Positions 1-23,673 of a DNA stretch of 23,673 nucleotides are shown here, piece after piece. The translations under genes were made by a program, and so were the position numbers. The notes beneath the pieces were generated by a model that was not told where the DNA came from, ran no database searches, and saw only the letters and a program-made list of their open reading frames with translations. The first letter of the stretch is position 1, and each line of letters begins with the position of its first letter. The stretch is from a virus: IMG/VR virus record IMGVR_UViG_3300028840_001027, positions 1 to 23,673 of that record; one strand, given 5' to 3'.

Positions 1-62
1 CTCAAATTTTTGAAAGTATCGCAGAACCCCTGACGTTTCTCGGTAAGAATTACACAAAACAG

Positions 63-10375: not shown

Positions 10376-10653
10376 GGTGGGAGGAGTTCGTTTTCCGCGT
10401 TGACATGATCGAGGCGGAGCGGGCGGAGCGGTTTAAGAACACGATGACCGGCGCCGCTTTCGTGGGTTGGCAACTAGGACAGCAATCGGGGTCTCTGAAG
10501 AAGGAATTGCCGTTCTCGAAATACCTGCGGCTGTTCGGGCTGAGTGACGACCCCCCGCCCCTGGACCCTGAGCAGCGCAAGGCGGTTACAGCCCGGGCCC
10601 TGGCGACGGCGGAGAAGATCAGCGCGGCATTCAAGGCGAAGAAGGCGACATGA
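10261..10653 (+). CDS. Tail assembly chaperone, frameshifted part (gpT-like)
   Basis: The second part of the G-T fusion, 130 residues read after the -1 slip, giving a predicted 258-residue fusion with the first 128 residues of the upstream protein. The reading frame has no convincing start of its own; its first candidate is GTG 10294, deep inside the upstream gene and without a good ribosome binding site. The sequence is charged and helical (VRFRERISTEQLEGLRWEEF, RWEEFVFRVDMIEAERAERF) and ends with a Lys/Ala-rich tail. The T part usually contacts tail tube subunits. Its stop overlaps the tape measure start (ATGA at 10650). Confidence 0.8.
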   Translation, partial: YWCIAAVQRDRVVSDSVVESERRVRFRERISTEQLEGLRWEEFVFRVDMIEAERAERFKNTMTGAAFVGWQLGQQSGSLKKELPFSKYLRLFGLSDDPPPLDPEQRKAVTARALATAEKISAAFKAKKAT

Positions 10654-13070
10654 GAGAAGTATTCAAATTGGTGGGGCGCATCACCACCGAGGGCTTCGGG
10701 GATCTCGGCACGAAGCTGGACAAAGCGGGAAAAGTTGTCGAGAAGACAGCGAAGCGTATAGATCGTTTCGGCCGCCAAGTGCAGAAGGTTGGGGTGGGTG
10801 TTACGAAGCTGACGGCGCCCCTGGCCGCGGCCGCTGGCGGGATGGTGCTTCTGGCGACGAAGACGGGCCAGTATGCCGACAAGCTGCTTGATCTGGAGCA
10901 GATCACCGGCTTGTCAACCGACACTCTCCAAGAAATGGAGCACGTTGCGCGCGCAGCGGGCGTCAATTTCGAGGCCTTGACAGGCACGGCCTCAAAACTC
11001 GTGCAGCGGCTGCCGCAGTTGGTGAAGGGGGAAGGAGCGGCCAGCGACGCTATCAAGGCCCTCGGGGTGAACATGTTCGACGCGAACGGCGAAGTTCGGG
11101 ACATGAACGATCTGTTTCCGGAGATGATTGCCCGACTACAGAGTATTCCGAATGTGTCGGAGCGTAACGCGATTGCCATGCAGCTGTTCGGGCGCAGCAT
11201 GCAGGATCTGGCGCCGGTCCTGGGCATGACCGAGGAGCAGCTGAACAAAATTCGCGGCGAGGCTCACGGCATGGGCTTGGTGATGAGCAAGGACAGCATC
11301 GAGGCCGCGAACAAGCTGCGCGGGTCGTTCGAGAAGGTCAAGGGGCAATTCATCAGCCTCGGCCGCGAACTCGCGGTGAAGTTCGTACCGATCCTGCAGG
11401 ACACCATCGTTCCCCTCATCACCGAGAGCGTCATACCGGCGTTCCGGAAGATCATCGAGTGGATCGGTACCGCGGCCGACTGGTTCAACAATCTCAACCC
11501 GTTCGTGAAAGACCTGGCGGTTGGTCTGGGCATCTTCGCCGTCACCCTCGGGCCGCTGCTCATCGGTGTCGGAAAGATGCTCGGCCTGGTGAAGGTCGCG
11601 GTGATGGTGTTCAAGTCGTTCAACATGGTCCTGCGCGCGAACCCCATCGGGCTCATCATCACCCTCATCGGCCTTCTCGTGGTCGCCGGCATTGCGCTGT
11701 ACCGCAACTGGGATACGGTCAAGGAGAAGATGCTCGAAGTGTGGGACGGGATTGTCTACGCTGCGAAGCAGGGGGTCGGGTACGTCAAAAAGCTCGCGTT
11801 TCGCCTCGCGCACGCGGTCCTCGGCGCCGTCTCCTCAATGGCCAAGTTCATTCCGGGGCTGAGCAAGAAGATAGACGGGCTGCGCCTGAAGCTCGGGCAG
11901 CTGTGGGCCGAGGAAGACGCGGAGATGAAGATCCGGCGGCGGGCCCGGGCCGAGACCGTCGCCAAGATCAAGGCCGAGAAGGAGCTGGCCGACGCAATCG
12001 AGAAGGCGAAGCAGGAGACCGAGAAGTACAAGACCTCCACACTCGGCGAGATCGAGCTGAGGAAGAAGGACGCGAAGGCCACGAAGGAGCAGATCGACAC
12101 CGAGGAGGACCTGGCCAAAGCCCGCGCGGACTTCGAAGCGGGATGGACCGACAAGCTGCGCGGCGAAACCATGACCCGGGCAGAGCTCCTCGAGTACGAG
12201 TATGAGCAGGCCCTCGCGAAGGCCTCCGAGTACGGCGCCAGCCGGCAGGATATCGAGGCGTACTACCAGATCCAGCGCCTGAAGCTCGCTGAGGATGAGG
12301 CGAAGGAGAAGGCCCGCCTGGCCGAACAGGAGGTCCAGAAGCGCCGAGAGACGGCCCAGGCGACGTATGGTATGGCGGTCGAGGCGGTGAACCAGATATT
12401 CAGCCTCATGTCTCAGTCGACCGACAACGAGCTCGCCCGCTTGGACCAGGAGACGACCGCGAAGAAGGCGGCAATCGACGCGAGCACTCTGGGCGAGGAA
12501 GAGAAGGCGAAGCGCAAAGAGGAGATCGACAAGAACGCCGACAAGAAGAAGCGTGAGCTCATGCGGGAGCAGGCGAAGCGGGACAAGGCCGCCGCCGTCT
12601 TCTCGGCCATTATCAACGGGTTCCAGGCGGTAAGTAAGGCATTGACGCTGGGGTTCCCCCTGGGGCTCATCATGGCCATTCTGTTTGGGGCGCTGGCTGT
12701 GGCTCAGATCGCACTCATCGCTGCGGAGCCACTGCCGCCATTGGCCCAGGGTGGAGTAGTGAGACGCAGCAACAGCGGTACCGCGGTGGTTGCCGGCGAG
12801 GGTGGGCAGGACGAGATGATACTGCCCATGCAGAGCGGTGTCAGCAAGGTAGTCGACCAGGTCGTGCAGGGGATTCGCGGGCTGGCGGCGGCTCCGGCCC
12901 TGCCGGCGTCGATGGGTGGGGCGAGTGCCGCCGCTGCAGCCGGCGCCGGTGGCGGGGGCATGCACCTGCACGTCGGGATGCTCATCGCCGACGACAGCGG
13001 TCTGAAGCAGCTCGAGCGGGTGCTGCTGCGGTTCCGCAATCAGGAACAGCAGCGGAAAGGTGAGTCCTGA
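10650..13070 (+). CDS. Tape measure protein
   Basis: An 806-residue protein that sets tail length. Residues about 85-190 carry the minor-tail/tape-measure core: TGLSTDTLQEMEHVARAAGV, then RNAIAMQLFGRSMQDLAPVL. Two hydrophobic segments follow near 293-320 and 335-358, the latter with the familiar 'NPIGLIITLIG' motif, which may insert into the membrane on DNA ejection. Residues about 400-640 are a charged coiled coil, then a third hydrophobic region near 650-690 and a Gly/Ala-rich tail with 'AQGGVVRRSNSGTAVVAGE'. At about 1.5 angstrom per residue the tail would be near 120 nm, which is an inference. Overlaps the preceding and following genes. Confidence 0.93.
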   Translation: MREVFKLVGRITTEGFGDLGTKLDKAGKVVEKTAKRIDRFGRQVQKVGVGVTKLTAPLAAAAGGMVLLATKTGQYADKLLDLEQITGLSTDTLQEMEHVARAAGVNFEALTGTASKLVQRLPQLVKGEGAASDAIKALGVNMFDANGEVRDMNDLFPEMIARLQSIPNVSERNAIAMQLFGRSMQDLAPVLGMTEEQLNKIRGEAHGMGLVMSKDSIEAANKLRGSFEKVKGQFISLGRELAVKFVPILQDTIVPLITESVIPAFRKIIEWIGTAADWFNNLNPFVKDLAVGLGIFAVTLGPLLIGVGKMLGLVKVAVMVFKSFNMVLRANPIGLIITLIGLLVVAGIALYRNWDTVKEKMLEVWDGIVYAAKQGVGYVKKLAFRLAHAVLGAVSSMAKFIPGLSKKIDGLRLKLGQLWAEEDAEMKIRRRARAETVAKIKAEKELADAIEKAKQETEKYKTSTLGEIELRKKDAKATKEQIDTEEDLAKARADFEAGWTDKLRGETMTRAELLEYEYEQALAKASEYGASRQDIEAYYQIQRLKLAEDEAKEKARLAEQEVQKRRETAQATYGMAVEAVNQIFSLMSQSTDNELARLDQETTAKKAAIDASTLGEEEKAKRKEEIDKNADKKKRELMREQAKRDKAAAVFSAIINGFQAVSKALTLGFPLGLIMAILFGALAVAQIALIAAEPLPPLAQGGVVRRSNSGTAVVAGEGGQDEMILPMQSGVSKVVDQVVQGIRGLAAAPALPASMGGASAAAAAGAGGGGMHLHVGMLIADDSGLKQLERVLLRFRNQEQQRKGES

Positions 13071-13439: not shown

Positions 13440-13673
13440 ATGCAGGTGGAGCTCGGCATTGTCATAGCGATCGCGTCGATGGCGTTTTCCGCGGGGATCG
13501 CCGTTGGCATGTTCAGCCTCAGGTTTGTCGCGCGCAGCGAATGTGCCCGGACACGCGAGACGGTTTGGGCTCGAATAGACGCGATTCAGGACGCGCTGAC
13601 CGGGGGGTCCTACACGTTCGAGGTCCGCCTGGTGCCGAAGCGGCAGCCGGACGACCAGACAGGCGGGAGGTAG
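13440..13673 (+). CDS. Small single-helix membrane protein, possible holin or tail accessory
   Basis: A 77-residue protein with one hydrophobic helix near the N-terminus (about residues 5-27: LGIVIAIASMAFSAGIAVGM and a few more), followed by a charged, probably cytoplasmic tail (RSECARTRETVWARIDAIQD). It has no lipobox or cleavage site. It starts one base after the preceding stop. A single-spanning small membrane protein could be a holin, but it lies 8 kb from the amidase gene; a tail-gene-linked membrane protein is equally possible. No family is recognised. Confidence 0.65.
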   Translation: MQVELGIVIAIASMAFSAGIAVGMFSLRFVARSECARTRETVWARIDAIQDALTGGSYTFEVRLVPKRQPDDQTGGR

Positions 13674-20498: not shown

Positions 20499-20963
20499 AT
20501 GGCGTGGTCGGACCCGAAGATCGACTTCGACGGTACGGAAGCCATCCCCCACACGGTGCCGAACGTGTGGGGTGAGGACATGCTTGTCCTAAATGGTGTC
20601 GAGTACTCGGGCCGGTACTACGGCACGTTCGGGGCCCACACCGGCCGGAACATTGGGTACGCTCTCGTGAAGGTGCCGGACCTGCACACACTCGTGCTCT
20701 CGCACTGGCGGTTCCACCTGCACGACCCCGACATGCGCCTGCACGTGCTGTACCATCTCGAAGGGGTTGGTCTGTTGGGTACGTACAACGAGTCCGACGA
20801 CTACTACGGTGACGAAGCCCTGACGGATGCGGCGTACCAGAACACAACCGGCGTGGACAAATACGTCCGCGGGCTCATCCGTCTGAGGAACACCGCGGGC
20901 GCGTCGACCGGTCCGATATCGGTGGGCTGGTGGATGCGGTTCGCGATCGAGGATCTCCAGTAG
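20499..20963 (+). CDS. Fibre-tip-like protein, paralogue 1
   Basis: A 154-residue protein paralogous to the next gene. Shared blocks in the same order are MAW..PK, YSGR..G, LVKVPD...LVLSHWRF, D.DM.L, GVG.LGTY..S..YY.DE, N.TG.DKY and GWW..F..ED. The compact, Trp- and Tyr-rich beta structure is like carbohydrate-binding fibre tips. No enzymatic motif is visible. AGGAG lies in the preceding codons. Probably a receptor-binding or virion-surface protein. Confidence 0.75.
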   Translation: MAWSDPKIDFDGTEAIPHTVPNVWGEDMLVLNGVEYSGRYYGTFGAHTGRNIGYALVKVPDLHTLVLSHWRFHLHDPDMRLHVLYHLEGVGLLGTYNESDDYYGDEALTDAAYQNTTGVDKYVRGLIRLRNTAGASTGPISVGWWMRFAIEDLQ

Positions 20964-20985: not shown

Positions 20986-21447
20986 ATGGCATGGACGGAA
21001 CCGAAGACCAACTGGGGTGCGACCGACCCGGTCACCCACACGCAGCTGAACGCCATCGGTGCGAATCTGGTGTTCCTGAATCGTATCGTCTACTCCGGCC
21101 GCTGGCGGGGATCACTGGGCGGGTGGGACTACGCGTACCCGCAGAAGTGTCTCGTCAAAGTGCCGGACGGCCAGAAGCTGGTCCTCTCGCACTGGCGGTT
21201 CTATCTCGACGACTCGGACATGCTGCTGTTGCTCTACTGGTACGTCGTCGGGGTCGGCTACCTCGGCACGTACGAGCAGTCGAGCAGCTACTACGCCGAC
21301 GAGGACAAGGCTGTGACTGCCTACTCGAACAGCACCGGGAGCGACAAGTACGCATACTGCGACGTTGCCCTCAAGAACAACGCCGCCGCGGGGGTGGGAG
21401 ACATCGAAACCGGCTGGTGGCTGCAGTTCCACCTGGAGGACGTGTAG
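20986..21447 (+). CDS. Fibre-tip-like protein, paralogue 2
   Basis: A 153-residue protein paralogous to the preceding gene over its full length, roughly 40% identical by eye. Its N-terminus 'PKTNWGATDPVTHTQLNAIG' resembles the attachment segment of many phage fibres ('TNW...D.VT...LN.I..N'), which is degraded in the first copy. It has its own Shine-Dalgarno (AGAGGA) and a 22-base gap before it, so both copies should be made. Duplication followed by divergence suggests either a heteromeric tip or broadened receptor range. Confidence 0.78.
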   Translation: MAWTEPKTNWGATDPVTHTQLNAIGANLVFLNRIVYSGRWRGSLGGWDYAYPQKCLVKVPDGQKLVLSHWRFYLDDSDMLLLLYWYVVGVGYLGTYEQSSSYYADEDKAVTAYSNSTGSDKYAYCDVALKNNAAAGVGDIETGWWLQFHLEDV

Positions 21448-21449
21448 CC

Positions 21450-21995
21450 ATGGCCAAGGTCGCAATCTATCCCGGCCACGTGGGCAAGGACTCGGGCGCC
21501 GTTGACGGTACCGACGCGGCCACCGGGGACCAGCTGCACACGATCGAGGCAGTCATCTCCTGGGCGATCGCCGACAAGGTCGCCGGCCTGCTCGGCGACA
21601 TGGGCATTGAGCACACCGTCGGCATCGGCCCCTTCGACGACCGTATCCGCGACACCCGCGACTGTGACCTGGGTGTGAGCATCCATGCTGACTGGCTGCC
21701 GGTGCGTCGCGTGCACGGCTACCATGTCATCTACAACGGCGACGCCAGGGACCGGGAGCTGGCGCACGCGATCGACGCTGCCATGTCCGTGGTGTCGGAC
21801 CGTGCCCGGCAGGTGCATATCCGGCGAGACCTGTACATCCTGCGCCAGACAGCGTTTCCGTGCGTCCTGGTCGAGTGCGGGTTCTTGAGCAACCGCGAGG
21901 AGGAGGCCGCGCTCATGCTGCGCAGCCGGCAGCACCGGTCCGCCTGGGCCATCGTGAGCGGCATCATGCGCTACGTCTACAACGGCAAGGAGTGA
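21450..21995 (+). CDS. N-acetylmuramoyl-L-alanine amidase endolysin (Amidase_3)
   Basis: A 181-residue zinc amidase that cuts the amide bond between MurNAc and the stem peptide. The Amidase_3 residues are all in place: H10 in YPGH, E33 in HTIEA, H79 in SIHAD as zinc ligands, and E142 in VLVECGFLSN as the catalytic residue. It has no signal peptide and no extra cell-wall-binding domain, so it needs a holin or other exit. I start it at ATG 21450; the longer in-frame reading would run through the previous gene. GGAGG lies inside that gene's end. Followed by the esterase gene. Confidence 0.93.
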   Translation: MAKVAIYPGHVGKDSGAVDGTDAATGDQLHTIEAVISWAIADKVAGLLGDMGIEHTVGIGPFDDRIRDTRDCDLGVSIHADWLPVRRVHGYHVIYNGDARDRELAHAIDAAMSVVSDRARQVHIRRDLYILRQTAFPCVLVECGFLSNREEEAALMLRSRQHRSAWAIVSGIMRYVYNGKE

Positions 21996-22000
21996 GCCCC

Positions 22001-22684
22001 ATGGCCGAGTCCGAGAGCATCTACTCCCGGCGGGTGGTACTCGCAGACCTGTGCCGGCGGGCCCGGCCGGGCGGTGACTGGTTGGGGTACCGGCCGGCAG
22101 CCTTCGAGAGCAAACGGACCGATACGCAGTGGTTCTTCCTCGACCTGCCGTATGCCTACCTGATCCTCTTTCGCGGTACCGAACCGCGCAAGGCGCGGGA
22201 CTGGCTGACAGACCTCATGTTCCGCCAGCGTGTCATCCCCTACGGCAACACCGGCAGCCGCATCCGCGTGCACCGTGGGTTCCTCGGGGCGTACAAGTCG
22301 GTGCGGGACCAGGTTCACGAGGCCGTGGGTGCCTACGTACACGACCGCAAGCCGGTAGTGGTTCTCGGCCACAGCCTGGGCGGGGCACTGGCAACACTGT
22401 GCGCCGTCGACCTGCAGTACTGCATGCAGCCCGGCCGGGAGCTGTTCGAGCATGCCCGCATCATCCACGCCTACACGTTTGGGAGCCCGCGTGTGGGCAA
22501 TGGATCGTTCGGGCGTTCCTACCGGCGCCGGGTGCCGCGGACGTGGCGATACTGGGGCTGGTGGGATATCGTCGTAAAGGTGCCGCCGGCACTGTTCGGG
22601 TACCGGCACGTGGTCGCCGGGACGGGCCTGCGCTGCCGTCACGACATCCGCTGCTACATCCAGCAGATCGCCAGACAGACGTGA
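22001..22684 (+). CDS. Class 3 lipase-like esterase in the lysis cassette
   Basis: A 227-residue alpha/beta-hydrolase of the lipase class 3 type. Visible features are LILFRGTE (54-61, oxyanion region), HRGF (91-94), the nucleophile elbow GHSLGGAL with S125, FGSPRVGN (160-167), WWDIVVKVPP with D189, and GYRHVV with H203, giving a complete Ser-Asp-His triad. I start it at ATG 22001 after AAGGAG; an upstream start would overlap the amidase. No signal peptide or lipobox. Directly downstream of the endolysin, it may cleave lipids or esters of the host envelope, as LysB-type enzymes do for mycobacteriophages, although it is not of the LysB/cutinase type. Confidence 0.88.
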   Translation: MAESESIYSRRVVLADLCRRARPGGDWLGYRPAAFESKRTDTQWFFLDLPYAYLILFRGTEPRKARDWLTDLMFRQRVIPYGNTGSRIRVHRGFLGAYKSVRDQVHEAVGAYVHDRKPVVVLGHSLGGALATLCAVDLQYCMQPGRELFEHARIIHAYTFGSPRVGNGSFGRSYRRRVPRTWRYWGWWDIVVKVPPALFGYRHVVAGTGLRCRHDIRCYIQQIARQT

Positions 22685-22687
22685 GTT

Positions 22688-23167
22688 TCAGAGTCCGGTC
22701 AAATCCTTGAACTTTGCGGTGGCGACGTTGTCCTCGAGACACATGGCTTCGAATTTCCAGACACCGTTCGCCTCAAGGTTGCTCACGTTCGCGAGGGCGG
22801 TGCCGATCTGCGCGTTCTCGCGGTCGTAGAGATTGAACGAGATTTGGGCGTATCCATATTCCTTCGAGCTGTTGTTCCTGACCTTGCCAGTGATCTTCAC
22901 ATTGCCGTACTCGCCCCGCGTCACCTTCCACCCCTCGAGCAGCTCGAGCTTCGGTTGGGCCACTGCCGAGGAGACGGTACTCACCGGGCCCGTGTCCGTC
23001 TCCGATATTGTGCCGATGAGTGACCCGAACACCCCAATGATGATCAAGGCGAGCAGCGTGATTAGGATGGGGTGACGGCCGGGCAGTTTCGCCCCGCAGT
23101 TTGGACATGCCTTTGCGGACTTGCTCACCTCGTGTCCGCAGTCTTTGCACTTGATCAGCTTGGCCAT
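22688..23167 (-). CDS. Zinc-ribbon, transmembrane and FxLyD-domain protein
   Basis: A 159-residue membrane protein. Order: zinc ribbon with C7, C10, C21 and C24 (CKDCG ... CPNCG), a transmembrane helix (about 34-54), a Ser/Thr linker, then an extracytoplasmic beta-sandwich with the FxLyD hallmark FNLYD (111-115). The start at 23167 follows AGGAGG at ideal spacing. Such proteins are common in bacterial genomes and have unclear roles in the envelope. It is convergent with the lysis genes, 3 bp away, and is downstream of the lipoprotein gene. It may be a moron (lysogenic conversion or exclusion) or a host gene next to a prophage. Confidence 0.88.
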   Translation of the reverse strand: MAKLIKCKDCGHEVSKSAKACPNCGAKLPGRHPILITLLALIIIGVFGSLIGTISETDTGPVSTVSSAVAQPKLELLEGWKVTRGEYGNVKITGKVRNNSSKEYGYAQISFNLYDRENAQIGTALANVSNLEANGVWKFEAMCLEDNVATAKFKDLTGL

Positions 23168-23195
23168 GGTGGCCTCCTGGTGGTTGGTGTGGGAA

Positions 23196-23582
23196 TCAGT
23201 CGTACCCGAGGAAGCGGAGAGTGTCCTCGGGACTACGCCCTGAGTCACAGTCCGAGCCCCCGGTGGATACGCAGAGTAGCGGGCTGGCGGGGGAGCAAAT
23301 GCGTGCGCGCACGTAGATGCAGTACTCCTCCGAGGTGTCAAGCACAAAGGTGTGGGTGTCGGGGAGGTCGAAGAAGTAGGCCGTTTCAGTGTCGCCGGGG
23401 TGTGCGTACTCGATGGTACCGGTATCATCCAACAACCAGCCTGCATGGTCGCCGGTTGGCTCTCTCACGATTACGGTCACCGGGATTGTGTGCGTGGGCT
23501 CCTCATCCCCGGCGCCGGTCGGGGTGGAGTCGGAGCAGCTGAGCAGGAAAGCGAGGATGAGGAACGTCGCGGCGATCCGCAT
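23196..23582 (-). CDS. Small secreted lipoprotein
   Basis: A 128-residue protein with a lipoprotein signal peptide (MRIAATFLILAFLLS, then C16 in LLSCSDS) and a mature region of Ser/Thr/Asp-rich sequence. Residues about 30-100 are beta-rich (TIPVTVIVREP, TAYFFDLPDTHTFVLDT). Four cysteines near the end (YCIYVRARICSP, LLCVSTGGSDCDS) could form disulfides in the periplasm or on the surface. GGAGGTG precedes the ATG. No family recognised. It leads the two-gene minus-strand unit. Confidence 0.82.
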   Translation of the reverse strand: MRIAATFLILAFLLSCSDSTPTGAGDEEPTHTIPVTVIVREPTGDHAGWLLDDTGTIEYAHPGDTETAYFFDLPDTHTFVLDTSEEYCIYVRARICSPASPLLCVSTGGSDCDSGRSPEDTLRFLGYD

Positions 23583-23673
23583 GGGGCACCTCCGTGCATG
23601 AGTTCACACTGAAGGGTACATCGCGCACGGATGCAGCGCAAGGAGTTCGTGACAGACGCGAAGTGCTACTTCG
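23583..23673. other. Leader of the minus-strand pair and window end
   Basis: About 90 bases upstream of the lipoprotein gene. I find no convincing minus-strand promoter here. The last 15 bases (23659-23673) form an inverted repeat CGAAGT-GCT-ACTTCG that touches the window end and may continue beyond it. A plus-strand reading frame from ATG 23631 (MQRKEFVTDAKCYF) is open to the end but has only weak ribosome binding site support, so I do not call it a gene. Confidence 0.4.

Follow-up and report, generated by a model that had tools for sequence, protein, structure and literature searches.

A zinc-ribbon/FxLYD membrane protein gene beside an orphan lipoprotein gene in a probably temperate phage: a candidate superinfection-exclusion moron

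The DNA analyzed in the current work (referred to as the window) corresponds to an IMG/VR record in full, a whole virus contig of 23,673 bp. Close to its right end two genes are located on the minus strand, one specifying a membrane protein with a zinc ribbon and an FxLYD domain, the other a lipoprotein, both facing the late genes present on the plus strand. The relevant features are given below, where L006 designates contig IMGVR_UViG_3300028840_003775 (16,483 bp), which was retrieved through the search with the lipoprotein.

1..42, no strand: 42 bp identical to one end of L006, consistent with a closed circle
10650..13070, plus strand: tape-measure protein of the window phage, not adjoining the gene pair (PHROGs)
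21444..21995, plus strand: Amidase_3 endolysin, convergent neighbour (Pfam, PHROGs)
22001..22684, plus strand: class 3 lipase/esterase, last gene of the late operon, ending 3 bp from the FxLYD gene (Pfam, PHROGs)
22688..23167, minus strand: gene of the zinc-ribbon/TM/FxLYD membrane protein, 159 aa, candidate superinfection-exclusion moron (ORF, Pfam, NCBIfam, PHROGs, alignment, model)
22697..22909, minus strand: FxLYD domain with an Ig/FNIII-like beta sandwich, residues 87-157, predicted to lie outside the membrane (NCBIfam, AlphaFold model, fold comparison)
23012..23068, minus strand: predicted TM helix, about residues 34-52 (TM peak and model)
23084..23152, minus strand: zinc ribbon CxxC...CPxC, residues 6-28, predicted to be cytoplasmic (Pfam Zn_Ribbon_1)
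23173..23178, minus strand: Shine-Dalgarno sequence AGGAGG of the FxLYD gene
23196..23582, minus strand: orphan lipoprotein gene, 128 aa (ORF, codon usage, lipobox)
23530..23673, no strand: 144 bp identical to the other end of L006, which runs on into the immunity region
23535..23567, minus strand: signal peptide core and lipobox TFLILAFLLSC (Cys16; PROSITE-type pattern)
23589..23593, minus strand: Shine-Dalgarno sequence GGAGG of the lipoprotein gene

An earlier note on this DNA had described these two minus-strand ORFs as a lipoprotein gene and a zinc-ribbon/FxLYD membrane protein gene, each preceded by a strong Shine-Dalgarno site and together abutting the genes on the lysis side by 3 bp, and this description was borne out. 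AGGAGG is located 5 nt upstream of the ATG of the FxLYD gene and GGAGG(T) 5-6 nt upstream of that of the lipoprotein gene, the lipase-like ORF ends at 22684 and leaves a gap of positions 22685-22687, and the identities of the two products follow from the lipobox, the Zn_Ribbon_1 and NF038353 matches and the TM peak.

The 159-aa protein matches Pfam Zn_Ribbon_1 with 29.2 bits (Pfam cut-off 25), the NCBIfam FxLYD family NF038353 with 79.2 bits (cut-off 23), and phrog_14275 over nearly its full length (residues 3-151, E 5.7e-28). It possesses the CxxC/CPxC zinc ribbon, the single TM helix and the FxLYD domain above the curated cut-off that characterize proteins of the phrog_14275 type, and as judged from its sequence it is a member of phrog_14275, a phage family to which no function is assigned. 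An AlphaFold model built from an alignment of eight sequences has a pLDDT of >90 for most of the outer domain, and comparison of this domain by VIA-align returned Ig domains of GH2 enzymes with a Z of about 10, and also IrmA and DUF1425. The modelled fold is an Ig/FNIII-like sandwich, which carries no specific functional information. A full-text literature search, covering papers under open licences, retrieved no paper on FxLYD, nor any that connects membrane proteins bearing a zinc ribbon with superinfection exclusion exerted by prophages, and the PADLOC models of anti-phage defence contained no family matching the FxLYD protein or the lipoprotein at E <= 1.

The 128-aa ORF satisfies the criteria for a bacterial lipoprotein, having its Cys at position 16 (allowed 15-35) and an n-region charged through Arg2, while its third-position GC of 0.80 and a codon score that is best in its own frame support coding in that frame only. 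The lipobox, the third-position GC and the codon score taken together indicate that this ORF is very probably a real gene despite the failure to find a relative: searches of phages, plasmids, IMG/VR and 398 Pseudomonadota genomes returned the adjoining contig and one insignificant match only. Its single-sequence structure model (pLDDT 40) was unusable.

The sequence context of the two genes beyond the window was provided by L006, both ends of which overlap exactly with the window, in a consistent orientation, the gene contents complementing each other without redundancy. The most economical interpretation of these sequence data is that the two contigs represent a single phage genome, circular or circularly permuted, which was assembled as two pieces and has a size of about 39,970 bp (23,673 + 16,483 - 144 - 42). 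The first gene encountered past position 23673 is a minus-strand ORF of 135 aa (L006:15906-16313), which is regulator-like in look and position; no family match and no confirmed HTH family was obtained for it, and an alignment failed to link it to the short HTH regulators occupying the same slot elsewhere. This is followed by a divergent plus-strand gene of the Cro/CI type with an HTH, a Dam methylase, a Cas4-type exonuclease, a tyrosine integrase and an HNH gene, and then by the terminase. The presence past position 23673 of the Cro/CI-type HTH gene, the early genes and the tyrosine integrase indicates that the phage is probably temperate. Two further observations concern this contig: its early region encodes a radical SAM protein (phrog_9298; L006:5474-6367, minus strand), and it carries two DNA N6-adenine methyltransferase-like genes, at L006:14585-15226 and L006:3232-3708 (both minus strand), the first of which, being the sole one tested, matches Pfam Dam.

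Based on this arrangement, the gene pair is flanked by the end of the late operon on one side and the immunity region on the other, and would be transcribed away from the latter. The earlier note had left room for the possibility that the two genes belong to the host and flank an integrated prophage, considering that they lie on the opposite strand and at a contig end. Yet L006 closes the circle, extension past position 23673 leads into phage immunity genes, early genes and an integrase rather than host genes, and this integrase is situated about 7 kb from the pair, which is thus not at a prophage end, provided that attP lies near the integrase. Moreover, when 84,980 species genomes were scanned for the pattern of the FxLYD protein, two partial N-terminal relatives were the sole matches, and no such pair was uncovered. 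With phage genes on both sides, a host origin is ruled out if the join of the two contigs is right, and on the whole is regarded as extremely improbable. A candidate terminator-like hairpin at the right end of the window was discarded, as it folds no better than shuffled sequences.

With regard to the convergent genes, which the earlier note had labelled lysis genes, this label holds for the Amidase_3 endolysin, and for the class 3 lipase a role in lysis is inferred. The latter gene (22001-22684, plus strand), directly 3' of the endolysin gene, could specify an enzyme for lysis of envelope lipids. A search of IMG/VR for genes closely related to the lipase, endolysin and regulator-like genes returned nothing beyond the adjoining contig. 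Just 5' of the endolysin gene two adjacent paralogues (20499-20963 and 20986-21447, plus strand) encode MAWxxPK... proteins of 154 and 153 aa, the genes being 78% identical in DNA sequence over 74 bp and possibly representing a duplicated tail or fibre accessory. Since a TM protein and a lipoprotein are encoded next to endolysin and lipase genes, they may be viewed as an accessory to lysis, i.e. a spanin-like pair of an inner-membrane protein and an outer-membrane lipoprotein. Such a role appears very unlikely, considering that the pair is located on the opposite strand from the lysis genes, that no spanin family of Pfam or PHROGs is matched, that neither a zinc ribbon nor FxLYD is a spanin feature, and that the relatives sit away from lysis genes.

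Relatives were sought with the family alignment and then with the anchor (zinc ribbon and TM helix) alone, which yielded 75 loci (some contigs being represented twice) and, among them, 47 distinct zinc-ribbon/TM proteins whose outer domains fall into 17 clusters without detectable mutual similarity. Twenty of these 47 proteins are encoded directly beside a tape-measure gene, where about 3 would be expected for random genes of the same loci; 19 of the neighbours were recognized by phmmer, seeded from these very loci, and one (in L060) by Pfam TMP_3. PHROGs independently assigns ten of these neighbours as tape-measure proteins (in L025, the third gene on). At the level of outer-domain clusters, 5 of the 17 have a member adjacent to a tape measure, as compared to 0.73 expected, a figure biased towards this result because the adjacent member was picked as representative. 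In L046 the zinc-ribbon gene adjoins the tape-measure gene on the opposite strand, as would be expected of an inserted moron. The FxLYD subgroup is scattered: none of its genes is directly beside a tape-measure gene, L025 alone is near one (three genes upstream), and others precede terminase-like genes, as in L028, or, in L109, separate portal-like from scaffold-like genes, these neighbours being judged by eye. In the window phage, a plus-strand ORF of 77 aa with an N-terminal TM helix (13440-13673), two genes past the tape-measure gene, recalls in length and layout HK97 gp15 (62 aa, N-terminal TM) or a holin.

The second recurrent position of the anchor family is near a repressor gene. Among annotated records, the closest complete relatives are the FxLYD proteins of C. 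difficile phage-plasmids (36% identity), each encoded close to an HTH repressor, and an XRE repressor gene adjoins the FxLYD gene in these phage-plasmids as well as in L031. An S24-type CI gene is present directly upstream of the anchor gene in L079 and L094, an HTH_3 gene occurs within three genes of it in L045, L048, L089 and L108, and a short DicA/RstR-like HTH gene is located directly upstream in the cellular loci L137 and L138. Further relatives are found at cI in phage D14O and between a regulator and the integrase in LPM4. As far as its sequence context indicates, the FxLYD gene of the window fits this repressor slot, and its placement on the repressor side of a temperate phage suits a lysogenically expressed envelope gene, in agreement with the envelope and lysogenic profile that the earlier note had attributed to the pair.

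Considering that the two slots occupied by the anchor family coincide with the two slots of known exclusion genes, the best reading of the FxLYD protein is that of a candidate superinfection-exclusion protein acting in the lysogen, a function to which, judging from the genomic positions of relatives, we assign about an even chance. In the envisaged mechanism, leftward transcription of both genes would start in the vicinity of the regulator-like gene and run against the late operon. The FxLYD protein would be placed in the cytoplasmic membrane, with the zinc ribbon inside and the Ig-like FxLYD domain outside, and when a long-tailed phage attempts infection, the outer domain would contact its tape-measure protein or else its membrane channel, so that DNA entry is stopped. 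The lipoprotein would be exported independently of the FxLYD protein, and may contribute to this process or have another site of action in the envelope. Against exclusion it must be considered that the FxLYD gene of the window phage is not beside the tape-measure gene, that an Ig-like domain fits many other functions, and that co-expression with a repressor is conjecture, as the regulator-like neighbour has no HTH family match.

Two other functions were weighed against these data. The envelope proteins may be lysogenic-conversion products of another kind, with an effect on the fitness of the host (stress, adhesion, surface) rather than on phages. This would agree with a general Ig/FNIII-like domain whose fold is closest to GH2 Ig domains, IrmA and DUF1425, with the occurrence of FxLYD proteins on plasmids that have no visible phage genes nearby, and with the anchor relatives in the chromosomal loci L135 and L136, where phage structural genes are likewise not visible; as it leaves the tape-measure slot of many relatives unexplained, we consider it rather unlikely. 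Alternatively, the protein may serve membrane signalling or regulation, the zinc ribbon binding a cytoplasmic partner and the outer domain sensing envelope events, for example to tune induction. A conserved zinc ribbon combined with variable outer domains and repressors close by would be in line with such a role, but it does not predict the tape-measure slot and is deemed improbable.

The proposal of superinfection exclusion made in the earlier note is strengthened for the FxLYD protein by the slots that its relatives occupy next to tape-measure and repressor genes. A 'cassette' made up of the two genes is not supported. The FxLYD gene alone recurs, the lipoprotein is without relatives, and lipoprotein genes as neighbours occur at background level. 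A partner rule (a zinc-ribbon gene adjoining a lipoprotein gene) was rejected, as 2 of 71 neighbours conformed to it versus a background of 1.1%, which is not clearly above. Lipoprotein genes directly downstream of zinc-ribbon/TM genes are present at L079:6422-7054 and L114:6622-7581. Co-transcription of the lipoprotein gene and the FxLYD gene in the window phage is likely, since the former is located between the regulator-like ORF and the latter.

A broader possibility, which we put forward tentatively, is that of a widespread and hitherto undescribed exclusion family, in which a constant anchor of zinc ribbon and TM helix would carry interchangeable outer domains, each matched to a type of tape measure, and whose genes would lie beside either the tape-measure gene or the repressor gene, the window gene being the FxLYD version in the repressor slot. 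If this is true, a common and nameless type of phage protein would acquire a testable function, further members could be found by the rule of a zinc-ribbon/TM gene adjoining a tape measure or repressor, and the matched set of outer domains and tape measures would allow one to ask how prophages recognise the DNA-injection machinery of their rivals, a question that also stands for gp15 and SieA-type systems.

The closest known counterparts in sequence are the C. difficile phage-plasmid proteins (pCDBI1, pESS17301c; phrog_14275), which share with the window protein the full-length arrangement of zinc ribbon, TM helix and FxLYD domain and the location beside an HTH repressor gene, but originate from low-GC Firmicute hosts and are encoded by a single gene without a lipoprotein. 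Among the membrane defences that engage the tape measure, SNIPE is a membrane nuclease acting on injected DNA (PMC13190303); it differs in being a nuclease with a DUF4041 domain, neither of which is matched by the FxLYD protein. HK97 gp15, TP-J34 Ltp and Tuc2009 Sie2009 are exclusion proteins of long-tailed phages that block DNA entry at the membrane, and Ltp and gp15 are overcome by changes in the tape measure, or in tail tube plus tape measure (PMC10883804; PMC4737114). No local alignment between the FxLYD protein and gp15 was obtained at E <= 100, and neither window protein matches the Pfam family of the Ltp lipoprotein at E <= 1; in view of this lack of a sequence link to gp15 or Ltp, the claim is that the FxLYD protein may work like these proteins, not that it is a member of their families. 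The proven exclusion moron gp15 differs in its size of 62 aa, without zinc ribbon or outer domain, and in that the window gene lies on the lysogeny side, past the lysis genes; like the FxLYD protein, it is a phage-encoded membrane protein, and its gene is annotated exactly between the tail chaperone and the tape measure, the same slot that is filled by relatives of the anchor. Ltp, a proven exclusion lipoprotein whose target is the tape measure and whose gene is part of the lysogeny module and transcribed in the prophage (PMC3952083; PMC4737114; PMC10883804), resembles the predicted FxLYD protein as a membrane-tethered outside protein encoded in the lysogeny module of a temperate siphophage (PMC3952083).
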